Below, piece after piece: positions 3,934-14,906 of a DNA stretch of 64,000 nt (position 1 is its first letter; every line of letters starts with the position of its first letter). Location of the stretch: assembly GCA_017411805.1 (NCBI GenBank), contig JAFQPI010000024.1:1-64000 (forward strand), given 5' to 3'. The notes under the pieces were generated by a model. It was not told where the DNA came from and searched no databases. It worked only from the letters and a program-made list of their open reading frames with translations. The position numbers were made by a program, and so were the translations under genes. Source of the DNA: Clostridia bacterium. GTDB taxonomy: Bacteria; Bacillota; Clostridia; Oscillospirales; CAG-272.

Positions 3934-5178
3934 ATGGCAAATATAACGAAGAAGCCCAACGGCACGTTTTTGATTAGAGTTTCCAATGGCATGAAAAACG
4001 GAAAGCAGGATCTTGTGTCCACGATCTATAAGCCTCCTGTCGGATCCACTCCGGCTATGGCAAAAAAAGCTGCGGAAAAATATGCTGTGCTCTTTGAGGA
4101 ATTGGTACATAGCGGTGGCTATGAAAAGAAACAGGCGGTCAGCAAGGAACTCCGTGCAAGGCGGAGAATGACAATTGAGCAGTTCGTGCAGGATCATTAT
4201 TATCCTGCCATTCAAAAGCACCTCTCGCCCACAACCTGCAGAACCTATGAGCTGATTATCGACTCACTCATTCTTCCGTCCTTTGGACGAGTGGAGCTTG
4301 AAGATGTGGACTCAACCCACATACAGAGCTTTGTGGATTTCTTATCTACACCCGAAGCAAGTGCCAAGGGAGAGAAAGGTCTGTCTCCGGCTTCGGTCAA
4401 ACGCTATTCAACCGTATTTTCCTCCATCATTACTGAAGCGTGGAAGCAAAAGTTTATCGAAACTAATCCAATCGGTAAGAACTATATCCATTACCCGAAA
4501 ATCGTTCAGCCTCAGCTTGAAGCCTACAGCGATGATGAGGTCGAGCAGCTTATGGAAGCGTTGGAGAACGAGGATATTCGCACGAGAGCTTTGCTGATAT
4601 TGGCGGTTACCACCGGAATGCGACGCGGAGAGCTGGTGGGGCTGATGTGGAATGACATTGATTTCGATAAGCAGATCATCACCATCTCCCGGAGCGTTTA
4701 TAAGCCCAAGGGGGAAGAACAGAGGGTAAAATCCACCAAGTCCGTGAGCAGTAACAGAACCGTCTATATTCCCGAAAGTTGTTCTCAGGCGCTCTATGAA
4801 CTGAAGATTCAGCAAGCAAACGACAAACGGCATTCGCAGGGGCTGTGGGTAGACACAGGTTTTGTCTTTACGGACAAGTATGGAAAGAACATCAGTCTGT
4901 ATGCTCCAACGAGAATCTGTGCCGAGGTACAGGCTAAATACGGTCTGCGGCACTTGAAGCTCCACGGCTTGCGTCATACCTGTGGCTCGTTGATGGTGGA
5001 GCACGGAGTAGATCCCGAAACGGTCAAAACAGTTCTCGGACACGAGAGCCTCAAAACCACAAACCGATATTTACATCCTTATGCCGAGAGCATGAAGGAA
5101 GCATCCGAAAAAATGGAAAGGATTATTCGAGGTAAAACAGATGGTGAAATTGAGATCCATCTGTCAAGCGGTGAATGA
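3934..5178 (+). CDS. Tyrosine recombinase / integrase (plus strand)
   Basis: A 414-residue site-specific recombinase of the Tn916/phage-integrase family. It has an N-terminal arm-binding region (about 1-60), a SAM-like core-binding domain (about 80-185), and a catalytic domain with Arg230 (TGMRRGEL), His344 and Arg347 (HGLRH), His370 (LGHES) and the Tyr379 nucleophile (TNRYLHP). All catalytic residues are present and the length is normal, so it looks active. It starts 5 bases after mazF and its last 38 bases overlap the excisionase-like gene. It catalyses integration and excision of the element through attP and attB. Confidence 0.95.
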   Translation: MANITKKPNGTFLIRVSNGMKNGKQDLVSTIYKPPVGSTPAMAKKAAEKYAVLFEELVHSGGYEKKQAVSKELRARRRMTIEQFVQDHYYPAIQKHLSPTTCRTYELIIDSLILPSFGRVELEDVDSTHIQSFVDFLSTPEASAKGEKGLSPASVKRYSTVFSSIITEAWKQKFIETNPIGKNYIHYPKIVQPQLEAYSDDEVEQLMEALENEDIRTRALLILAVTTGMRRGELVGLMWNDIDFDKQIITISRSVYKPKGEEQRVKSTKSVSSNRTVYIPESCSQALYELKIQQANDKRHSQGLWVDTGFVFTDKYGKNISLYAPTRICAEVQAKYGLRHLKLHGLRHTCGSLMVEHGVDPETVKTVLGHESLKTTNRYLHPYAESMKEASEKMERIIRGKTDGEIEIHLSSGE

Positions 5179-5632
5179 TATAAGGCAATCTGACCCCGGA
5201 ACCGCTATGACAGAAGGCTTTTTACGATTGCTGATCGAAAACGGCGACGTGTCTTATGAAATATGCGGTTCTCGGGTATGCCTTAACATCGACATCCTGT
5301 TTAAGGAATTGTCGTGCCTGTTTGAACTGGAAACCGAAGCCATGCCGAAGCTCCGCACGGTTAAAGGGGCTTTGAAAGAGATCAAAGCTGTCGATGAACA
5401 GAGTGTGATCACTGAATACAAAATTCGGTGGTTAATAAAAAGCGGCCGACTGCGTAGCTACGCAGTCGGCTCAAGGGAAATTATCGTTATGGAGTCCTTT
5501 GATGATGAGAACCTATTGACTCAGGAATCAAGGGAAGGATGTAACATTACTCAGGGGATAAAACTGAGTGAACAGTATGGGGAATTGCTGTCAAAAACCA
5601 CTCAGTCGTTCACCTGCACTCGAAAACGATGA
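5141..5632 (+). CDS. Two-domain excisionase-like protein
   Basis: A 163-residue protein whose start lies inside the integrase gene, preceded by GAGGTAAAACAG. Residues 3-56 and 70-122 are two diverged copies of one unit: K-L-R-[ST]-[IV] ... T-E-x-[FK]-[LI]-R-x-L-I-[EK]-[NS]-G ... [GV]-S-R. This pattern matches the small winged-helix excisionase fold that reads DNA beside att sites, here duplicated. The C-terminal 40 residues are low in structure. Overlap with the integrase couples their expression and supports a recombination directionality factor. The assignment rests on pattern and context, not on a strong family match. Confidence 0.55.
   Translation: MVKLRSICQAVNDIRQSDPGTAMTEGFLRLLIENGDVSYEICGSRVCLNIDILFKELSCLFELETEAMPKLRTVKGALKEIKAVDEQSVITEYKIRWLIKSGRLRSYAVGSREIIVMESFDDENLLTQESREGCNITQGIKLSEQYGELLSKTTQSFTCTRKR
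5445..5470. repeat. 26-bp perfect palindrome inside the excisionase-like gene
   Basis: GCCGACTGCGTAG is followed at once by its exact reverse complement. It encodes part of the second repeat unit (residues about 102-110) of the excisionase-like protein. A perfect 13-bp half-site inside coding DNA is unlikely by chance and could be a protein-binding site or a strong RNA hairpin. Confidence 0.7.
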
Positions 5633-5635
5633 GGT

Positions 5636-6919
5636 TCAGACGTCGATGGAGTCGAAACAATCGGCTGCAGCTTTGTCGGTTTTCGCCAGTGCATGTACAT
5701 AGATATTGGTCGTGTCAATGGACGTATGCCCAAGTCGTTTGGAAACGGTTTTGATATCACATCCATTTGAAAGCAAATAGGTTGCGGACGAGTGTCTTAA
5801 CCCATGAAACTTCAGATGGCGAAAACCGTATTTTTTAAGAAACTTATCAAATTGTTTGGTCGGCGTGTGCGGATGCATGACATGACCGCACCAGTCGGTA
5901 AAGAGGAATCCCTCCTCATGCCATTTCTCACCGAGCAAGGCTTTTTTACGGTCTTGCTCCTTTTTCAGTTCCTGCAGGACGTCGCAGAGAGCTTGTGGAA
6001 TTGCCATCTGACGAATGCTGCTGATGGTTTTGGGAAGCTTGATTTCAGGCTCCTGCCCAACAAGCTTAACAACGCTTCTGCGAATATACATAGTCCGTTT
6101 TTCAAAATCGACATCCTCCCATTTCAAACCGGCAATCTCGCCTCGTCTGGCGCCTGTGTAAATGGCAGTAGCAATGACGGCATGGATGTGGATGGGCTCA
6201 AGCTGAGCCATTTTGAGGATCTCGGCAATCTCTTCATTGCTGAAGGCTTCAACTTCAGGTGTAACGATTTTGGAAATCTCAAGTCTGCGCGTATCAGCCG
6301 GATTTGATTGGATGTACTCTTGTTTCCAAGCCATTGTCATAATGGATTGAAGAATGGTCAAATATCTACGAATGGTAGCAGGGGCGAGTTTCTCGCCCTT
6401 TTTATCTACCCGTCCCGAGGGAGTGGCCAAGAAGTTAATCAATTCTTGAACGTGGAATGGTTTGATTTCATCCAAATGCAGATGACCGAGTTTGGGAATG
6501 AGAATACGCTGGATAGCAGTCTCATAAAGCAGAAAAGTCGTTGACGAGATGTTCTCCTTTTTGGCTGTCAGATAGATTTCGCAGAAATCTGAAAACAGGG
6601 GAGTGGACGGTGTTTGAATGGGAGTCAGTACATGCTGAGATTCCTGCACACCTGCCTCCTCTGCAAGTTCCTGTGCAACTGTGTTTTCGTCAAAACTCAC
6701 GTTGGGCTTGTGTTGGTGTTTGAGTTCAAATTCAATTCTGCATTCTTCCTCAAGTGCCTTGACAAAAGCATCGAGCTCCTTGCGAAGTTTGGATTCAGGA
6801 AGATTCACCTTCGACGGATGAAACAGTCGGGATTTTTGGAAAGGGCGTCCGTTGTCCTGCATTCCATAAGATACTCTGACAAAATAATTGTTGTTACCGC
6901 GTTCCTTGATGTAAGCCAT
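5636..6919 (-). CDS. Second tyrosine recombinase / integrase (minus strand, tRNA-proximal)
   Basis: A 427-residue integrase related to, but distinct from, the plus-strand one. It has an N-terminal arm-binding region, a Glu-rich linker (about 55-105), a core-binding domain (about 108-205) and catalytic residues Arg258 (TGARRGE), His372/Arg375 (HGLRH), His398 (LGHTS) and Tyr407 (TNIYVHA). AGGAGG lies 7 bases before the ATG. It ends 3 bases from the end of the excisionase-like gene, in convergent orientation. Its 5' end faces the 3' end of tRNA-Pro about 290 bases away, the standard arrangement for an integrase that uses a tRNA gene as attB. It is therefore the best candidate for the enzyme that placed this element. 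Confidence 0.93.
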   Translation of the reverse strand: MAYIKERGNNNYFVRVSYGMQDNGRPFQKSRLFHPSKVNLPESKLRKELDAFVKALEEECRIEFELKHQHKPNVSFDENTVAQELAEEAGVQESQHVLTPIQTPSTPLFSDFCEIYLTAKKENISSTTFLLYETAIQRILIPKLGHLHLDEIKPFHVQELINFLATPSGRVDKKGEKLAPATIRRYLTILQSIMTMAWKQEYIQSNPADTRRLEISKIVTPEVEAFSNEEIAEILKMAQLEPIHIHAVIATAIYTGARRGEIAGLKWEDVDFEKRTMYIRRSVVKLVGQEPEIKLPKTISSIRQMAIPQALCDVLQELKKEQDRKKALLGEKWHEEGFLFTDWCGHVMHPHTPTKQFDKFLKKYGFRHLKFHGLRHSSATYLLSNGCDIKTVSKRLGHTSIDTTNIYVHALAKTDKAAADCFDSIDV

Positions 6920-7157
6920 AATAGCCTCCTAAAAAATAGAATTTTATTACAGGCAATACACCATTGCAAGATTTACACGGATTTTTGACAAGATTTTTGA
7001 TTATGCAAAGGGCAAGAAAGGTGCAAAATAGTTCGGTTATGTTGGAAAAACTGAAGAAAAAATCGCATTTTTACTTGCACTTGCTATGCACTAACTATGC
7101 ACCAAACCATTTGCGGAATGGTAGAGGCGAATAGAGAGTGACAGAATAAACAAAAAT
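6920..7157. other. Element end region with putative integrase arm-site repeats
   Basis: A non-coding stretch between the minus-strand integrase and tRNA-Pro. It contains two adjacent 11-bp direct repeats, CTATGCACTAA and CTATGCACCAA (7084-7105), preceded by TTGCAC (7075-7080) and further TGCAAA-type motifs at about 7004-7025. Short repeated motifs near att are typical arm-type sites for tyrosine integrases and excisionases. Confidence 0.45.
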
Positions 7158-7190
7158 CGAGCCTAAATCTTACGATTCGGCTCGGTTTTT
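7158..7190. terminator. Terminator between tRNA-Pro and integrase
   Basis: CGAGCC/GGCTCG (7158-7163/7179-7184) with flanking A and T tracts on both sides, so it can act in both directions. It ends the tRNA transcript on the minus strand. Because it lies on the element side of the tRNA 3' end, the element probably supplies it. Confidence 0.75.
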
Positions 7191-7211
7191 TGTGCATTTC
7201 GTTAAAAATGC

Positions 7212-7287
7212 TGGTCTGAGTGACAAGACTTGAACTTGCGGCCTCTACCACCCCAAGGTAGCGCGCTACCAACTGCGCCACACCCAG
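7212..7287 (-). tRNA. tRNA-Pro (anticodon GGG)
   Basis: Read on the minus strand, all arms close. The acceptor is CTGGGTG/CACTCAG with discriminator A and encoded CCA. The D stem is GCGC/GCGC, the anticodon stem CTACC/GGTAG with loop TTGGGGT, and the T stem GCAAG/CTTGT with loop TTCAAGT. Loop positions 34-36 are GGG, which reads CCC proline codons. It is 76 nt long. Its 3' end faces the integrase-bearing element, so the tRNA 3' half is the likely attB site and has been restored intact. Confidence 0.95.
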
Positions 7288-7379: not shown

Positions 7380-7470
7380 TAGCCTTTTTGACTTTTTTTA
7401 TGTTTTTTTGCAAAAAATATGTCTTTTTTCTCTGAATGCGATTCTGTCCGCATGAACTTTGATGATTCTA

Positions 7471-7504
7471 AAAGCCGAGTACCGCTTTTTTGATACTCGG
7501 CTTT
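7471..7504. terminator. Terminator of the RyR/TrkA operon
   Basis: AAAGCCGAGTA and TACTCGGCTTT form an 11-bp stem with a 12-base loop, 22 bases after the stop codon of the 768-residue gene. The minus strand continues with TTTTAGAATC. Confidence 0.85.
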
Positions 7505-7526: not shown

Positions 7527-9833
7527 TCAAATATCCTTGATGCAATCTGCCACCGTCAGCATATCAACAGGAACAAGATCATAATGAAGCTTACATTTTT
7601 TGTCCGTAATGCCGGAGCGAAGGAAGCCCTCGGTTCTCATATAAGCGTTCCATCTCACGTGCTCGATACTCGCAAAGTACTTTGCTTTCTTAAAGTACTC
7701 CTGCATATCAAAAGTCTTTTCGTTCGCACATACGATATGCTCCTCAACGAATTTGTCAATATCCCGCTTCATCTCCTCGCTCTGAGAGGAGTACTCAAAA
7801 GAGTGGACGATCCGTCTCTTCTCTTCTTCATTCTTACCTTTGGTTTTCAATGAAATGATACAATCATAAATGGCTCTCATAGCCTTGGTCTTGTCTGTAT
7901 CCCTATTGACTTCGTCAAGAAGTGCCTCGTAGCCCTCGATATATGCTTCAGTATCTGAAAGCATGGGGAGCTCGATCTTTATCTTACGTTTGGGATCGGA
8001 CAGCAACCCGAGCACAGCGGCTCTTTCCTCAACGGTAAGCTTTCGGTAATAAATATACGCAATCTTCGAATACAATGCGTCAGCAAAGCTCTTCATCTCT
8101 TCGGCAAGCTTTTTGACGCTTTCGTTATCATTCATCTGCTCGAAAACAGATCTGCGTATCGACACATCAGATTCGGGCAGAGAAGAATCTTTGGAATGAT
8201 AGAAAGAGAACGCCGCCACGTCGCCTTTATATTCAATTATCCTTCTGCGCAGTAATCTGTGAAGCGCACCGGCAAGCGAAGAGCAATAATTGTAATCACT
8301 CATATAGTAATTATTCTCCGCCTCTGCGCTGTTATCCCAGCGCATATGTACCTCCAAGCCTTTTTTGATAAGCTCGGAATCGATTACCGTTTTTTCGGAA
8401 TAAAATTCATCAAGATCTCCGATAAATTTGATCTTTCCGTCCGCCCAAACCGAGTTCAGGCGTTTTTTTAGCGACGAATCATATACAACCGTTTCAATGT
8501 CCGGAGTCCTGCCGTTTCTTGCCAATCTGTTGCGTATCTCTGTTGCGGCGGTAATATTCTGATTGTCGCTGCCGAGGCAGACGAAAACGTATGTGACGTC
8601 CTTGATATTTTCAAGCTCCGTAAAGAAGGTCTCTGTTCCGAAGACAGAGTTTTTTATGTTGAAGGTATATCTCATATCGCCCTCAACGTCCATGGGCTTA
8701 TTCAGCTCTATTGACGGGCACGAGGCTCTGAATATCGACTCTATCTCGCCGCGCTGATCAAATGCCGTGATATTGATGCGATATCCGGGTATCTGACAAT
8801 ACCAAAGCATCGCCTTTATGACCTCGAGACCGTATTTGCCCAAGCCAACTACGGCAACCGATATTTCGCGCGTGCCGTCCTCAAGCAGGTTGGCGTTTTC
8901 AAACAAGCTTATTCCTTTGTCATTGAGATTATGGTATACAAGAGCTCTTATATCATTGACTCTGATAACCTTGATCGCAAGCTCGCTTTTTTCTTCATTT
9001 GTATAGGAATCCAAAAAGCACTTACATTCTATGTCATTGGAAAAAACGTAGAGCCTTACGTTCGGCTTTTTTCCGTATTCGTTAATGATGCTTTCCGCAT
9101 GGTAGACCTTTGCTTCCTCAGCGTCCGAAACAAGATAAAAGCTTACCTTCCTGAATGAAAATCTATTCAGATACTTGATCGATACCAGATCCCTTGAGAA
9201 AAGCACCGCGCCCATTTCCTTAGCTTGCTCGATAAGATCAATACTATCCTCGCTCCTCATCTTCAATACGTCGGTAAAAACAACAAGCGACGCGGGAATG
9301 AATCTGACCTTTCGGGATCTTTCGTCATTTTCCATTATACTCTTCGCCAAAGCCAAAGTACGCTCGTTCAATTCCGAAAAAACGTGCGTATGCTTCCAGA
9401 ATGAGAAGAGATACCTGCGGTATGCCGCAGCGTTCTTAAAGAATGAAAGGATCACTCCGAACGAAAGAAGGGGCGCAAAGGCATATAAAAACGCACCAAA
9501 TCCCGTATACAGAGTCTGAACAGTGGCATCCAGATGCGCAACGCTTTCGACAATGTCCATATATCCTCCGTCAAAGGCAAAAAGTCTTATCGAATGCTGG
9601 ATCGATATAAGTATTGCCTTGAGAAACTGAATAGCAGTTACAGAATCCGAAAGCTTTTCCAGATAGATCGGACAGAGGAATACCACGGCAGAAACGAAAG
9701 TTCCCAGAATCATCATTCGATTGGGAGTCAGGATCCTCTTTCTTTTGTATCTCAGCTTGCTTACCACAAAGGCGTCAAAAAGAGTAATTAGCATGATCAC
9801 AGCGGAAATCCCCCACCATATATACCAATACAT
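7527..9833 (-). CDS. Membrane protein with Rossmann/TrkA-N-like regions and RyR-like C-terminus
   Basis: A 768-residue protein. I place the start at the ATG at 9833, 7 bases after GGAGG; a TTG two codons earlier is too close to that site. Three to four hydrophobic segments lie at about 2-24, 39-58, 65-85 and 108-132. No TVGYG-type potassium selectivity filter is present. Residues about 147-310 and 323-460 look like two Rossmann-type regulatory domains; the second has the clear dinucleotide motif VVGLGKYG (328-335), as in TrkA-N/RCK proteins. The last 60 residues (HVRWNAYMRTEGF...LHYDLVPVDML) resemble a ryanodine-receptor RyR repeat. It is probably a membrane sensor or ion-flux regulator responding to a nucleotide ligand. 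It is the last gene of a six-gene operon, 15 bases after the stand-alone RyR gene. Function is inferred from domains. Confidence 0.7.
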   Translation of the reverse strand: MYWYIWWGISAVIMLITLFDAFVVSKLRYKRKRILTPNRMMILGTFVSAVVFLCPIYLEKLSDSVTAIQFLKAILISIQHSIRLFAFDGGYMDIVESVAHLDATVQTLYTGFGAFLYAFAPLLSFGVILSFFKNAAAYRRYLFSFWKHTHVFSELNERTLALAKSIMENDERSRKVRFIPASLVVFTDVLKMRSEDSIDLIEQAKEMGAVLFSRDLVSIKYLNRFSFRKVSFYLVSDAEEAKVYHAESIINEYGKKPNVRLYVFSNDIECKCFLDSYTNEEKSELAIKVIRVNDIRALVYHNLNDKGISLFENANLLEDGTREISVAVVGLGKYGLEVIKAMLWYCQIPGYRINITAFDQRGEIESIFRASCPSIELNKPMDVEGDMRYTFNIKNSVFGTETFFTELENIKDVTYVFVCLGSDNQNITAATEIRNRLARNGRTPDIETVVYDSSLKKRLNSVWADGKIKFIGDLDEFYSEKTVIDSELIKKGLEVHMRWDNSAEAENNYYMSDYNYCSSLAGALHRLLRRRIIEYKGDVAAFSFYHSKDSSLPESDVSIRRSVFEQMNDNESVKKLAEEMKSFADALYSKIAYIYYRKLTVEERAAVLGLLSDPKRKIKIELPMLSDTEAYIEGYEALLDEVNRDTDKTKAMRAIYDCIISLKTKGKNEEEKRRIVHSFEYSSQSEEMKRDIDKFVEEHIVCANEKTFDMQEYFKKAKYFASIEHVRWNAYMRTEGFLRSGITDKKCKLHYDLVPVDMLTVADCIKDI

Positions 9834-9848
9834 GATCAATCCTCCGTT

Positions 9849-10130
9849 TTATTCCTTGGTTATTTTATATCCGAGCTTTATTATGAGCTTCAGCGTTTCA
9901 AGCGACGTATTTCTGTCGTAATCCTTCTCAGACTCGGGAAGCTCTTCATACGGGACAAGGCAGGGATGATGCTTTTTTTCGTCATCTCTTCGCTCGCCGT
10001 AAGACCAGCCCTCGCGGATCCTGCTTTCAGACCAAACCTCATGGGTATTCCTTGCAAGTGCCTCGCAAAGCTCCATAATATCTTCGCTGAGGACAACGTC
10101 CTTTGTATCTATGGGATCGGGCTTATACAT
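9849..10130 (-). CDS. Stand-alone RyR (ryanodine receptor) domain protein
   Basis: A 93-residue protein that is almost entirely one RyR domain. Residues 25-90 show the family pattern: N-T-H-E-V-W-S, R-I-x-E-G-W-S-Y-G, then H-P-C-L-V-P-Y-E-E-L-P-E-S-E-K-D-Y-D-R, and G-Y-K-I at the end. In animal ryanodine and IP3-type channels RyR repeats are structural modules. Bacterial versions are known but their ligand is not firmly established. GAAGGAAGGAA precedes the ATG. It sits 20 bases after the PatB-like gene and directly before the large membrane protein that itself ends in an RyR-like segment, so the two products probably interact or sense the same ligand. Confidence 0.85.
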   Translation of the reverse strand: MYKPDPIDTKDVVLSEDIMELCEALARNTHEVWSESRIREGWSYGERRDDEKKHHPCLVPYEELPESEKDYDRNTSLETLKLIIKLGYKITKE

Positions 10131-10150
10131 AATTTATTCCTTCCTTCGGT

Positions 10151-11356
10151 TTATTTGTTAAACACGTACTTATCCATCCGCGCAAATGCCTCTTTGACAC
10201 GTGAAAGAGGAAGCGCGAGGTTCAAGCGGATATGCTCCGTTCCTCCGTGCTGTCTGCCGTCCTGCCAAGCCACGCCGACGTCCCAACCCGCGCGCAACAG
10301 CTCATCGAGCGTCATACCGCGCGAGACAAGCCATCCGGAGCAATCCATGAAAACCATATAAGTTCCCTCAGGACGCGCGGCGGATACTCCCTTGAAATGC
10401 TCGTTTATATAATCGCAGGCAAAATTGACATTTTCGGTAATTGTCGCGCGAAGCTCATCGACCCACTCATAGCCCTCGGGCTTATACGCCCCGATAAGGG
10501 CATACATCGAAAGCATATTCATCGAATTATAATGCGAAAGCGAGGATTCCTTTTCAACGCGATCACGCAGACGCTTATTGTAAATTATATGATACGATCC
10601 GATAAGTCCCGCAAGATTGAAGGTCTTAGAAGGAGCATAGAGCGCAACGGTTCTGTTTTTTGCATCCTCGCTGACAGATTGAGTAGGTATATGCTTATGG
10701 CCCTCAAGAATGATATCCGACCATATCTCGTCGGATACAACGTTGACGTCGTGCTTTCTGTAGATCTCCATAGCCCTCTCGATTTCCCAACGCTCCCAGA
10801 CGCGCCCTGTTGGGTTGTGAGGCGAGCAGAACAATGCGGCATGAATTTTATTGTCAATGATCTTTCGCTCCATATCGTCGAAATTCATGCGCCACACGCC
10901 GTCCTCATCACGATAAAGCGGAGAGAGCACGATATTGTATCCGTTATCCTTAAGAGATCCGGAGAATCCCATATAGATAGGTCCGTGAACCAAAATGCTG
11001 TCGCCGCGCGAGCAGAACGTATTCATAGCGGATATCATGCCGCCGAGAACTCCGTTTTCGTAGCCTATATGCTCCGGCATGAGGTCGCTGACACCGTTGC
11101 GGATAGATTGCCACTTGATAATCGAATCGTAATATTCATCTCGCGGCTCAAAATATCCGAACGCGGGGTGTGATATACGCTCGCTTATTGCCTCGCAGAT
11201 CGTTGGAACAGTCGGGAAGTTCATATCGGCGACCCACATCGGGATCACGTCAAAGCCCTCCTTAGGCAGTCCGGGCGACCAGCTTCCGCCAAGCTCGTCC
11301 ACGGCGAGCGCGTCTCGTCCGCGCCTGTCCATCAAGGATTCAAAATCGTATTTCAT
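10151..11356 (-). CDS. PatB/MalY-type PLP-dependent C-S lyase (class I/II aminotransferase fold)
   Basis: A 401-residue fold-type I PLP enzyme. It has the MalY/PatB opening (PMWVADMNFPTVPTI, 39-53), the substrate-phosphate region SPHNPTGRVW (178-187), SDEIWSDI (208-215) with the PLP-ring Asp, and the Schiff-base lysine in APSKTFNLAGL (Lys244). PatB-type enzymes cleave cystathionine or cysteine-S-conjugates to ammonia, pyruvate and a thiol; some MalY members also have a regulatory role. It lies in the middle of the sensor/RyR operon, 24 bases after the YwaF-like gene. A metabolic enzyme in that setting is unexpected and may supply or remove the sensed compound. The exact substrate cannot be told. 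Confidence 0.88.
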   Translation of the reverse strand: MKYDFESLMDRRGRDALAVDELGGSWSPGLPKEGFDVIPMWVADMNFPTVPTICEAISERISHPAFGYFEPRDEYYDSIIKWQSIRNGVSDLMPEHIGYENGVLGGMISAMNTFCSRGDSILVHGPIYMGFSGSLKDNGYNIVLSPLYRDEDGVWRMNFDDMERKIIDNKIHAALFCSPHNPTGRVWERWEIERAMEIYRKHDVNVVSDEIWSDIILEGHKHIPTQSVSEDAKNRTVALYAPSKTFNLAGLIGSYHIIYNKRLRDRVEKESSLSHYNSMNMLSMYALIGAYKPEGYEWVDELRATITENVNFACDYINEHFKGVSAARPEGTYMVFMDCSGWLVSRGMTLDELLRAGWDVGVAWQDGRQHGGTEHIRLNLALPLSRVKEAFARMDKYVFNK

Positions 11357-11380
11357 GGTATCTCCTTTAGTTTTTCGGAA

Positions 11381-12163
11381 TTACCCGATCTTCTTCTTTT
11401 TTGTTCTTCCAATGCAGGCAAGCCTGAATATAACGCCGGCTGCCGCCGAGGTTATGGGAATATAGATCACCGTGCTTGCCGCCCAACCGTATTTCTGCGC
11501 AATATTGCTGAATACGATTATCGGCGAGAGGTTGGGTCCGACGAAGAACATATTCGCCTCCGCCCCCACCGTTATACCGATCAGGGTGTTGATTATAAAT
11601 GCCGCGAAGCAAAGCAGAACAAAAAGCTTCACAACGTCAAAATAGTCCTGTTTGCTTCTTCCCGCGCGGTGCGAGAATACTATGTAAAAGCTCAGGAAAA
11701 CAAGAGAGTAATGCCAAGCGATCGCATGCACCGTCAGCGGCACCTGATCCAGAAAGACGCCCGACGGCTCCAATACGCCCGCGAATCCTCCAAGCATATT
11801 GAAGCACATCATAAAGCCGTACACCGCACGCTTGACCCGTTCGTTTTTGCAAAATACCGCAAGCGGGCAAAGATACATAGGCATTGAGCACATCTGGAAG
11901 GGGAATTCACCCCAAGAGATCGCATTATTCTCGACGACGTAAAATAAGAAGAGTTGCTTGAATATTTCGCTCGCGATAAGCACGCCCGAAAAACACAAAA
12001 GCAATATTTTATTCTTCTTTTCATCAAAATTGCGGCAGAGCCACGCAAGCGAGACAGCAAGCGTCATACCGAGGACGATAAGCGTTATATGGAAAACGCC
12101 GTAAGCAGGCGGAGGGGACATCTCTGCCGCCATCTTGTGCATAAGCTTTTCAATAAAATTCAT
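11381..12163 (-). CDS. YwaF/TIGR02206-type integral membrane protein
   Basis: A 260-residue, very hydrophobic protein with about seven predicted spans (roughly 22-40, 52-75, 85-105, 112-130, 143-165, 175-200 and 225-248). It has family-type features: HITL in the first span, WGEFPFQMCSMPMYLCPLAVF, and the HAIAWHYSLVF segment with paired His. This matches the TIGR02206/YwaF group, whose biochemical role is unknown. Its ATG overlaps the stop of the histidine kinase gene (TAATG), showing translational coupling. Confidence 0.8.
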   Translation of the reverse strand: MNFIEKLMHKMAAEMSPPPAYGVFHITLIVLGMTLAVSLAWLCRNFDEKKNKILLLCFSGVLIASEIFKQLFLFYVVENNAISWGEFPFQMCSMPMYLCPLAVFCKNERVKRAVYGFMMCFNMLGGFAGVLEPSGVFLDQVPLTVHAIAWHYSLVFLSFYIVFSHRAGRSKQDYFDVVKLFVLLCFAAFIINTLIGITVGAEANMFFVGPNLSPIIVFSNIAQKYGWAASTVIYIPITSAAAGVIFRLACIGRTKKKKIG

Positions 12164-14154
12164 TATGCTTCTCCGTTTTTAACCTTCGGAAAAGACAGCG
12201 TGACCTTGAAAAGATCGCCGTCAAGCGTGATGCGGAAGCTTCCTCCCTGCAATTCCGTAAGGCTTTTTGCAATTGACAGTCCCAGACCGTTTCCCTCTGT
12301 ATTTCTCGATTTATCGCCTCTGACGAAGCGTTCGGTAAGTTCGTTTACATCAACAGCGAGAGCCTCGCGCGAAATATTCTTAAAGATGAATACCGCATCC
12401 TCCCCGATATCCTCAAGGCTTACGTATACTCTCGTGCCGGTAAGCGCATACTTACGCGCATTTCCCATCAGATTGTCGAACACGCGCCAAATTCTTCTTC
12501 CGTCAGCCATGATCTTGACCTCGTTTTTCGGCAGCGAACAGACAAGCTCAAGCCCTACGTCGGAAAGCCTTTGATCATACTCTCCCGATAGCTGAGAGAT
12601 CAGAACTCCCGCATCGCATTCGCTGAGTTCGATCTCTATATTTCCGCTTGATGCCTTGGAAGCCTCAACAAGATCCTCAATAAGCCTTTTCATTCTCTCA
12701 GACTGATTATGAAGTACCGAGGCATATTCCTTGATATTGGCATTGTCGCATTCCTCGCGGCAGATAAGATCGGAATAATTGATAATTGAGGTAAGAGGCG
12801 TTTTGATGTCGTGCGAGACGTTTGTAATAAGCTCGGTCTTCATACGCTCGCTTCTGAGCCTTTCCTCAACGGCATTGTTGAGGCCCTCTCCTATGCGGTT
12901 AAGATCCTCGCCGTGCGCTTTGAGATCGAGTATAAGCGGCTTGACGTCGACCTTATAATCAAGATCTCCGTCCGCTATCCTTTTTCCGCCCAGCTTAAGA
13001 CGGCTGAGCATTATTGCAATATAAGCCACGGCAACGCAAGCTATAAGCTTACCTACCAGCCACCAGATCAAGAGGTTGTCCGGTTCGTCCTGAGTAAAAG
13101 CAATTACGACAAACTCGATCGCAGTCACCGCGATCATCAGGATCACTGTTTTCCATATCAGAGGTATGGAAACTACCAGAGTACGGATACATCTTCCGAG
13201 AAAGCAGATCCCGCGCCACGTCAGAGCTGCCAAGCGGTACAGAATTGTATTCTTTACCACGCTTCCGAGCTTCAGACGCAATGATAAGCTCATAAGCCAG
13301 AACAGGCTCGCAATTACCACCGCCACAAACCATATAACGGAAAATACGACCGTAGCTATAGAACTCCCGATACCGTCAACCGCGGCAAGTCCAAGTAAAA
13401 CTATTGCGGCATATGCTGCCGTGGGTATCTCAAAGGGAATTTTCGTCAGCATCGAAGGGCTGACTCCTTGAGTTCCGCTTCTTCTTCCCGCGGCAACCAT
13501 CAGAAAAGCAATACAGATTATTGCCGTCAGTAAAGCCAAAGCCCCCAGCGGATATACCCAGAATCTGAAGGTATACAAAACGTCGATAAGCAGACCGTAC
13601 CAGAAATAATCGTCCGTCTCGGTAAGTTCGGAGGATATACCGAGAGTAACTGAATATACCGATTCCGGCGGATATTCGTCATGATCATTATCGCTGCCTA
13701 TCGAGCGGAAGAGCTCAATATCGCCCTCGTCGTTGTATTCAATATACCAATAGAAGGTGTAGACAAATCTTTCATCGACCTTTGCCCGATTTCTTTCATA
13801 CCTCGGATAATCGGGATTCGCGCTTTCCGAGACGACCATTCCGATATTGGAATATTTTATAAAATCGTCGGCGTTGTTTTCTCCGTAATCGGAGCTTGAC
13901 AGAAGAAGTATCAGATTATAGCAGTCGTTATACGCCGATTTCGAATAAATATCGTCTTTATTCGCATCCTTACTTGATTGGTATACGTTCGCCTTGAACA
14001 TCGTCACGACACCAACCACAGCAAGACCGATCAAGCAAATCATGACCACGGCAACTATAAATGCCGATACCTTGAGCGCCGTACTATGACTCAACCGAAA
14101 ACGATTGGTTTTATCCTTCCGCCTTCCTTGCGCGGCAGGAGAATTCTCCTTCAT
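12163..14154 (-). CDS. Multi-pass membrane sensor histidine kinase
   Basis: A 663-residue kinase. The start at 14154 overlaps the response-regulator stop (TAATG) and has AAGGGAG 7 bases upstream. A first span (about 28-52) is followed by an extracytoplasmic region of about 140 residues, then five or six further spans (about 195-385). HAMP-like residues 390-430 lead to the HisKA H-box NVSHDIKTPL with His448, and then the N-box (NLMGNARKYA) and the G-box (GNGLGLSIAK). It autophosphorylates on His448 and passes phosphate to the adjacent OmpR-type regulator. The large membrane block suggests sensing within or at the membrane. Confidence 0.92.
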   Translation of the reverse strand: MKENSPAAQGRRKDKTNRFRLSHSTALKVSAFIVAVVMICLIGLAVVGVVTMFKANVYQSSKDANKDDIYSKSAYNDCYNLILLLSSSDYGENNADDFIKYSNIGMVVSESANPDYPRYERNRAKVDERFVYTFYWYIEYNDEGDIELFRSIGSDNDHDEYPPESVYSVTLGISSELTETDDYFWYGLLIDVLYTFRFWVYPLGALALLTAIICIAFLMVAAGRRSGTQGVSPSMLTKIPFEIPTAAYAAIVLLGLAAVDGIGSSIATVVFSVIWFVAVVIASLFWLMSLSLRLKLGSVVKNTILYRLAALTWRGICFLGRCIRTLVVSIPLIWKTVILMIAVTAIEFVVIAFTQDEPDNLLIWWLVGKLIACVAVAYIAIMLSRLKLGGKRIADGDLDYKVDVKPLILDLKAHGEDLNRIGEGLNNAVEERLRSERMKTELITNVSHDIKTPLTSIINYSDLICREECDNANIKEYASVLHNQSERMKRLIEDLVEASKASSGNIEIELSECDAGVLISQLSGEYDQRLSDVGLELVCSLPKNEVKIMADGRRIWRVFDNLMGNARKYALTGTRVYVSLEDIGEDAVFIFKNISREALAVDVNELTERFVRGDKSRNTEGNGLGLSIAKSLTELQGGSFRITLDGDLFKVTLSFPKVKNGEA

Positions 14155-14849
14155 TATCTTGCTCCCTTCTCGATCTTGTATCCCTGTCCCCAAACCACCT
14201 TGAGATATCTGGGCTCGGCGGGATTTATCTCGATCTTCTCACGCAGATGTCTTATGTGGACCGCCACGGTATTGTCACCCGTAAGCGCGCTTTCCTTCCA
14301 GACCATCGTATATATCTCGCTCGGAGAAAAAACCTTCCCGGGATTCGACATCAGAAGCTTGAGAATGTCATATTCCTTCGGCGTCAAAGCTACCTCCTCG
14401 CCGTCAAGCAGGAATCTTTTTTCTCTGTTGTCGATCTCAAGCCCTCCGATCGTGATACGGTCCTCTGTCTTTGACGATCCTCCGAGAGTAAAATATCTTC
14501 GAAGCTGTGAGCGAACTCTTGCTGAGACCTCAACCGGATTGAAGGGCTTGGTTATGTAATCATCCGCACCTATATTCAGCCCGAGGATCTTATCGCTGTC
14601 CTCGCTCTTTGCGGAAAGAAAGATGATCGGCACGTTGCTGGTCTCGCGGATCTTGACAGCAGTGGATATTCCGTCCATGACCGGCATCATTATATCAAGA
14701 ATGATCAAATGGATCTCTTCCCTCTCAAGTATGCGAAGTGCCTCACGTCCATTTTCCGCCGTAAAGAAATTCAGATCGGGAGAAGCAAGGTATATTTTCA
14801 GCGCGGATACGATATCCGCCTCGTCATCGCAAATTAAAATATTATACAT
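14154..14849 (-). CDS. OmpR/PhoB-family response regulator
   Basis: A 231-residue regulator starting at the ATG at 14849, behind GGAG; an ATG further upstream lacks a site. The receiver domain (1-120) has the acidic pair Asp8/Asp9, phospho-acceptor Asp52 (LDIMMP) and Lys101 (TKPF). The C-terminal winged helix (about 130-230) has the usual L.L...E..LL..L and V.VHIRHLREKI. It is the first gene of the operon that continues through the kinase, YwaF-like, PatB-like and two RyR-type genes, so it may autoregulate that set. Confidence 0.95.
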   Translation of the reverse strand: MYNILICDDEADIVSALKIYLASPDLNFFTAENGREALRILEREEIHLIILDIMMPVMDGISTAVKIRETSNVPIIFLSAKSEDSDKILGLNIGADDYITKPFNPVEVSARVRSQLRRYFTLGGSSKTEDRITIGGLEIDNREKRFLLDGEEVALTPKEYDILKLLMSNPGKVFSPSEIYTMVWKESALTGDNTVAVHIRHLREKIEINPAEPRYLKVVWGQGYKIEKGAR

Positions 14850-14877: not shown

Positions 14878-14906
14878 ATTATATCACATTTTTTATGAAA
14901 AAGAAA
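14878..14906 (-). promoter_or_regulatory. Extended -10 promoter of the two-component/RyR operon
   Basis: On the minus strand TGATATAAT, a TATAAT box with the extended TGn, at 14878-14886. A poor -35 (TTTCTT) lies 17 bases upstream. A weak -35 fits a promoter that needs an activator such as the regulator it precedes. Confidence 0.6.

Follow-up and report, generated by a model that had tools for sequence, protein, structure and literature searches.

The DNA analysed here, a window of 64,000 nucleotides (contig JAFQPI010000024.1, positions 1 to 64,000) from the Clostridia bacterium assembly GCA_017411805.1, encodes a small stand-alone RyR protein followed by a larger protein, hereafter called RCK-RyR, which ends in an RyR domain and whose remaining sequence is modelled as predicted membrane helices followed by a tandem RCK gating ring. 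Because many related ring genes lie beside TIR, nuclease or RyR genes, we propose that this pair may well be a receptor module reading an ADP-ribose-type immune signal made by TIR proteins, with the ligand as a presumption. Both genes close a near-gapless run of six minus-strand genes in the order response regulator, kinase, TMEM164/TP0381-type protein, PatB-type enzyme, RyR and RCK-RyR. The coordinates, overlaps and gaps agree with the packing, order and spacing given in the original prediction, which had been made from the bare sequence.

The stand-alone RyR protein (93 amino acids; 9849..10130, minus strand, after a 20-base gap) matched all 91 positions of PF02026 with 127.2 bits (cut-off 27.4; E=3e-37), a full domain above the cut-off, as had been expected of the fifth gene. 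A 2026 preprint (PMC13232231) reports that phage RyR-domain anti-Thoeris proteins, named RyDEP, destroy or sequester TIR-made ADP-ribose signals, and that the residues H75, W78, H100 and D117 of the phage RyR enzyme contact the ligand. Their counterparts are H30, W33, H55 and D72 in the stand-alone RyR, and H727, W730, H752 and D769 in RCK-RyR (residue numbers counted from the TTG at 9839). The spacing of 3, 22 and 17 is identical in the three proteins, both RyR domains of the window thus carrying the H/W/H/D ligand residues at the published distances. Among the homologues of the stand-alone RyR, of which 120 were listed out of 4945 (close relatives, own copy included), the first H, the W and the D were kept in 120/120 and H55 in 119/120. 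For RCK-RyR, the H, W, H and D were present in 27/27 rows of an alignment, A1, composed of the window protein and 26 of 120 listed relatives (355 found), and in 79, 80, 80 and 79 of 80 loci, respectively. As these loci were found via patterns containing WNAY..E and LW..Q..GY, conservation of the residues within those patterns is ascertained by the search; the pocket W lies within the locus-finding pattern, and both H residues and the D lie outside it. The pocket residues of the two proteins, together with a GxGxxG Rossmann motif, support at the level of sequence the earlier suggestion that the RyR and Rossmann proteins may read a nucleotide compound.

RCK-RyR (7527..9833, minus strand, after a 15-base gap) comprises 768 amino acids from its ATG, or 770 from the alternative TTG start at 9839. 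Its AlphaFold2 model (predicted local distance difference test, pLDDT, 86.6; predicted template modelling score, pTM, 0.77) displays the tandem Rossmann ring fold of RCK/KTN gating rings, and the closest fold matches of low root-mean-square deviation, among the matches listed, were TrkA and channel gating rings. The predicted membrane region (residues 5-144; 9408..9827, minus strand) includes three strongly hydrophobic helices and a further helix in the model (69-87). The second Rossmann domain (residues 324-480; 8400..8870, minus strand) contains the GLGKYG motif, and all 27 rows of A1 keep its residues G332, G334, G337 and D361. At the end of the protein, the RyR domain (residues 715-770; 7530..7697, minus strand), which harbors H727, W730, H752 and D769, was recognized by profile comparison, by the AlphaFold model and by Foldseek, C-terminal RyR pieces having been taken from 34 of the 80 loci plus the window. 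These three approaches confirmed the RyR-like C-terminus proposed for the last gene although Pfam misses it: RCK-RyR matched no Pfam family above cut-off and none of the NCBIfam models at 1e-3, and at the curated cut-off of PF02026 no RyR row was obtained for the 770-residue protein or for its last 71 residues. The structure model, which the original prediction had named as a check, shows an RyR fold on the ring with the pocket residues in place. Identity as a K+ channel was rejected, given that the filter motif is missing and that the local LYTGFGAF stretch of the window protein is not conserved in A1.

The genomic neighbourhood of RCK-RyR genes was analysed with profiles in the loci of the best 80 of 152 relatives, which come from named genomes and average 17 kb. 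TIR genes were present in 25/80 loci (12 TIR genes at ≤200 bp on the same strand), a Card1-like CARF nuclease in 11/80 (8 adjacent by the same measure of distance and strand) and a stand-alone RyR in 13/80 (9 adjacent). The first 50 loci contained 19 TIR genes versus 1.65 expected, an about 11-fold excess (Poisson 2e-14), where the expectation derives from whole-genome Pfam counts and the locus counts from a purpose-built profile. No TIR was detected in 15 control loci, taken from the surroundings of TMEM164-type genes in the same family (0.22 Mb, a small set; Fisher p 0.009). The TIR profile gave 26 loci; L099 failed the Pfam TIR check and was therefore removed, which reduces the set to 25 loci with 12 adjacent genes. 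Pfam confirmed the TIR domain in L083, L085, L089, L104 and L115, and in L114 via its copy L063, and PADLOC gave a weak ThsB-type TIR match in L087; the other TIR loci are called by the profile alone. The conserved TIR glutamate, established as the NADase glutamate, was kept in 39/39 rows that have a residue at this position. Regarding the nucleases, PADLOC confirmed CARF-PDDEXK in L075, L085 and L147; the Card1-like protein of L147 showed no PF09002 match at 1e-3 but was retained for its PADLOC CARF-PDDEXK match of 1.8e-25. A fusion protein in L057 combines a protein kinase with Card1 by Pfam. Elsewhere in the genome from which the window comes, five TIR matches fall in four genes, each of which Pfam confirmed. 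A 340-residue protein with two TIR domains is encoded in this genome at G000 C61:7153-8064 (L213).

Relatives of the two genes are unevenly distributed. An RyR match was found in 17/246 same-family genomes, own included (13 above cut-off), and in 0/14 control genomes, so that RyR domains, described beforehand as rare in bacteria, are indeed uncommon here. RCK-RyR matches were patchy, with 25/246 family genomes (a count that takes in the own genome and partial matches), 22/391 class genomes (own included, many partial) and 2/13 genus genomes (own included; the other copy is distant, at 32%). The family search yielded 11 full-length stand-alone RyR genes, seven of which adjoin an RCK-RyR gene. 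As for the remaining four, one adjoins a kinase/RCK-RyR-like/Card1 fusion, one a Card1-like gene, one an AAA+ protease-like gene behind which lies a Card1-like gene, and one stands beside neither RCK-RyR nor Card1.

On the proposed reading, a TIR NADase encoded elsewhere in the cell would convert NAD+ into a cyclic ADP-ribose-type nucleotide, which the RyR pocket at the C-terminus of the ring protein would bind. Like nucleotide-gated RCK proteins, the ring might then alter its conformation and act on the membrane part, leaving the cell permeabilized or depolarized. Where relatives have a Card1-like CARF nuclease next to the ring gene, this would contribute cleavage of nucleic acids. The same nucleotide would be a ligand of the stand-alone RyR, which would either pair with the truncated RyR of the ring or remove the signal to provide both threshold and shut-off. 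In the genome of the window, the appended pair and the PatB-type enzyme would have been placed under control of the kinase. A bolder version, which we regard as conceivable but doubtful, makes the system a ryanodine-receptor-like bacterial immune receptor: an RCK ring in the membrane with an RyR tip, completed by the stand-alone RyR and switched by TIR-made cyclic ADP-ribose. In this version RyR domains would originally have been readers of an NAD-derived immune signal, encoded by the cell, and the phage RyR proteins a stolen counter-weapon. If RyR readers mounted on a gating ring are indeed encoded by cells beside TIR proteins and CARF nucleases, the cell side of the phage contest becomes testable, and a simple setting is offered for the open question of a direct action of cyclic ADP-ribose on RyR domains.

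Several known systems resemble parts of this arrangement. RyDEP, as described in PMC13232231, shares with the window pair PF02026, the same four ligand residues and spacing, and a link to TIR-made ADP-ribose signals, but it is a phage-borne, homodimeric and stand-alone counter-defence protein, whereas the window RyR is bacterial, paired with an RCK ring, and TIR-adjacent in some relatives. With RCK/KTN rings (TrkA, GsuK, DMI1/CASTOR), RCK-RyR has in common the GxGxxG motif and, in our model, the tandem Rossmann ring fold; unlike them, it lacks the K+ filter motif and bears a C-terminal RyR domain. Card1/Can2-type CARF-PDDEXK nucleases, encoded in the neighbourhood of RCK-RyR in 11/80 loci, are normally served by cyclic oligoadenylate from Cas10; unlike those served in this way, they adjoin RyR and RCK-RyR genes here. 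The likeness to Thoeris (ThsB TIR with ThsA) lies in a TIR adjoining, in relatives, a likely nucleotide-reading partner. ThsA is described as a SIR2-SLOG protein, whereas the partner here is RCK-RyR, and the window pair has no adjoining TIR. Lastly, the stand-alone RyR of B. thetaiotaomicron (3nrt, 6uag, 6ug4), a dimer according to the titles of 6uag and 6ug4, is a single RyR repeat like the window RyR, which unlike it is encoded beside a second RyR carried by a gating ring.

TIR signalling, RCK rings, CARF nucleases and RyR binding of cyclic ADP-ribose isomers are each already known. Prokaryotic RyR domains may be mentioned in a survey of nucleotide-centric conflict systems from 2015. Among the titles and abstract starts listed by literature searches, with most subscription journals outside their scope, none dealt with a bacterial RyR-RCK protein, its combination with an RyR partner or its link to TIR. 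The passages available from PMC9503650, PMC7159879, PMC7016017 and PMC8195603 hold nothing on bacterial RyR, and a literature search on RYDR likewise returned nothing on it.

A number of observations weigh against a receptor for TIR-made signals. According to PMC13232231, six of eight further phage RyR homologues assayed bound the signal and none was seen cutting it, so the residues do not predict the chemistry. The K+ filter TxGYG/TxGFG is absent from RCK-RyR, and the looser T.?G[YF]G occurs in 1/27 A1 rows. None of TIR, Card1 and RyR was present within the available stretch of 40/80 loci. No TIR or Card1-like gene was called in the 64 kb window, where the adjacency of Thoeris is thus missing. 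In the window's own clade of 11 loci, TIR occurs in 2/11 and Card1 in 3/11, with a stand-alone RyR in 6/11; as the tree was built by a quick method and rooted at its midpoint, its division into two clades depends on that root. PADLOC includes models for neither the RyR protein nor RCK-RyR. Defence genes moreover cluster in islands, so that nearness need not mean one pathway, and the known signal for CARF nucleases in other systems is cyclic oligoadenylate, not ADP-ribose. Two explanations draw on these points. RCK-RyR could be a TrkA-like regulator of an ion transporter whose Rossmann domain senses the NAD(H)/ADP state, the RyR domains being extra adenine-nucleotide sensors with no immunity link in this genome. 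The intact GxGxxG, the leading low-deviation fold matches to TrkA and channel gating rings, and a window devoid of TIR and Card1-like genes speak for it, but the protein has predicted membrane helices of its own, its relatives show a strong TIR and CARF-nuclease neighbourhood, and its presence in 25/246 family genomes is patchy; we consider this explanation unlikely. A shade less probable still is that RyR and RCK-RyR are genes of defence islands whose products act on their own, a phage-triggered membrane effector being one example, and that TIR nearness reflects only shared residence in an island. The 40/80 loci free of TIR, Card1 and RyR are in keeping with this, as are L077, L078 and L086, where RyR/RCK-RyR pairs stand without a called TIR or Card1 gene, whereas the 12 TIR and 8 Card1-like genes lying at ≤200 bp in the same orientation and the fusion protein in L057 argue against it.

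The remaining explanation is that of the original prediction, in which the kinase and regulator control a lyase making or clearing a sulfur compound or nucleotide adduct that the RyR and RCK proteins read. Gapless packing of the genes is in its favor, but comparison within the genus contradicts such a circuit, which we judge very improbable. Three same-genus genomes (G155, G675, G717) are syntenic with the window from about 22 kb to 11.45 kb through a run of lipase-like gene, regulator, kinase and TMEM164-type gene, where the match ends; no PatB, RyR or RCK-RyR gene follows the TMEM164-type gene at this locus. The PatB orthologue of G155 (86%) sits on a different contig, of which the 15 kb read contain neither RyR nor RCK-RyR, and G675 and G717 have no PatB orthologue at 1e-30. 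In another genus, G686 and G779 carry TMEM164-type relatives of about 72%, with neither regulator nor kinase nor lyase, RyR or RCK-RyR genes beside them. The order of all six genes, whose recurrence had been proposed as a check and whose absence elsewhere as a refutation, was found in 0/20 earlier and 0/80 later relative loci (many cut by contig ends; the two sets overlap in part, with some identical contigs), whereas the pair of the last two genes does recur. The two-component/lyase circuit was accordingly rejected. Given the three-gene locus of the same-genus genomes, the lyase, RyR and RCK-RyR genes were most simply appended to the regulator-kinase-TMEM164 operon in the window's lineage; this likely represents a gain here and not a loss in the other genomes.

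An integrative element seems to lie beside the operon (window 3934-7287): a tRNA-Pro (7212-7287) followed by tyrosine integrases at 5636-6919 (minus strand) and 3934-5178 (plus strand) adjoins the appended block. The operon as cargo of this element was rejected, since the tRNA-Pro and the integrase at 5636-6919 lie beyond the last gene, which by geometry puts the operon outside the element. An origin in a prophage or plasmid was likewise rejected, no relative having been found in a pattern-based scan of viral contigs or in plasmids; one distant relative (31% over 62%) occurs in MT835673, a record named Bacteriophage sp. No relative emerged when genome contigs were scanned with a single protein.

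The other four genes of the run, all on the minus strand, begin with an OmpR/VanR-type response regulator (14154..14849; PF00072 and PF00486), found at the same locus in the three same-genus genomes. It is followed with a TAATG overlap by a VanS-like sensor histidine kinase (12163..14154; PF00512 and PF02518), whose match to the NCBIfam VanS model is below cut-off; the kinase is also at the same locus in the three genomes, split into two open reading frames in G675. The TMEM164/TP0381-type integral membrane protein (11381..12163), previously called YwaF-like, overlaps the kinase by TAATG and matched PF14808 with 65.8 bits (cut-off 25) and TIGR02206 with 34.6 bits, under the NCBI cut-off of 75. 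After a 24-base gap comes the PatB-type pyridoxal phosphate enzyme (10151..11356), absent from the locus in the three genomes, with 306.6 bits for TIGR04350, under the NCBI cut-off of 340. A TATAAT box read by eye 5′ of the response regulator (14878..14883, minus strand) is a possible operon promoter; no -35 partner was found for it, and it is not among the features listed by the scan of the sequence. A terminator-like hairpin followed by a T run, also read by eye, lies 3′ of the last stop (7470..7504, minus strand) and is absent from the scan listing because its loop exceeds the length the scan allows.

Further recurrent genes were observed around RCK-RyR in relatives. A TIR-protein kinase fusion adjoins RCK-RyR at L067:6795-8807, the opposite side being occupied by an AAA+ gene and a Card1-like nuclease. 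Two RCK-RyR-like genes, one of about 600 residues and one longer (714-927 residues; cut off in L116), are adjacent or close in L093, L110, L116, L117, L137, L141 and L150, and are followed by a stand-alone RyR gene in L110, L137 and L141; such paired proteins could possibly form hetero-oligomeric rings. Next after RCK-RyR, a protein of about 1150 residues belonging to one cluster is encoded in L078, L097, L101, L110, L111, L146 and L150, with two AAA domains and Peptidase_M41 by Pfam in L110 and in relatives of L052 and L054. Proteins of about 660, 716 and 1430 residues, without a Pfam match in the representatives scanned, recur jointly near RCK-RyR in L087, L090, L096, L106, L115, L126 and L139, and a TIR gene is present in 4/7 of these loci.
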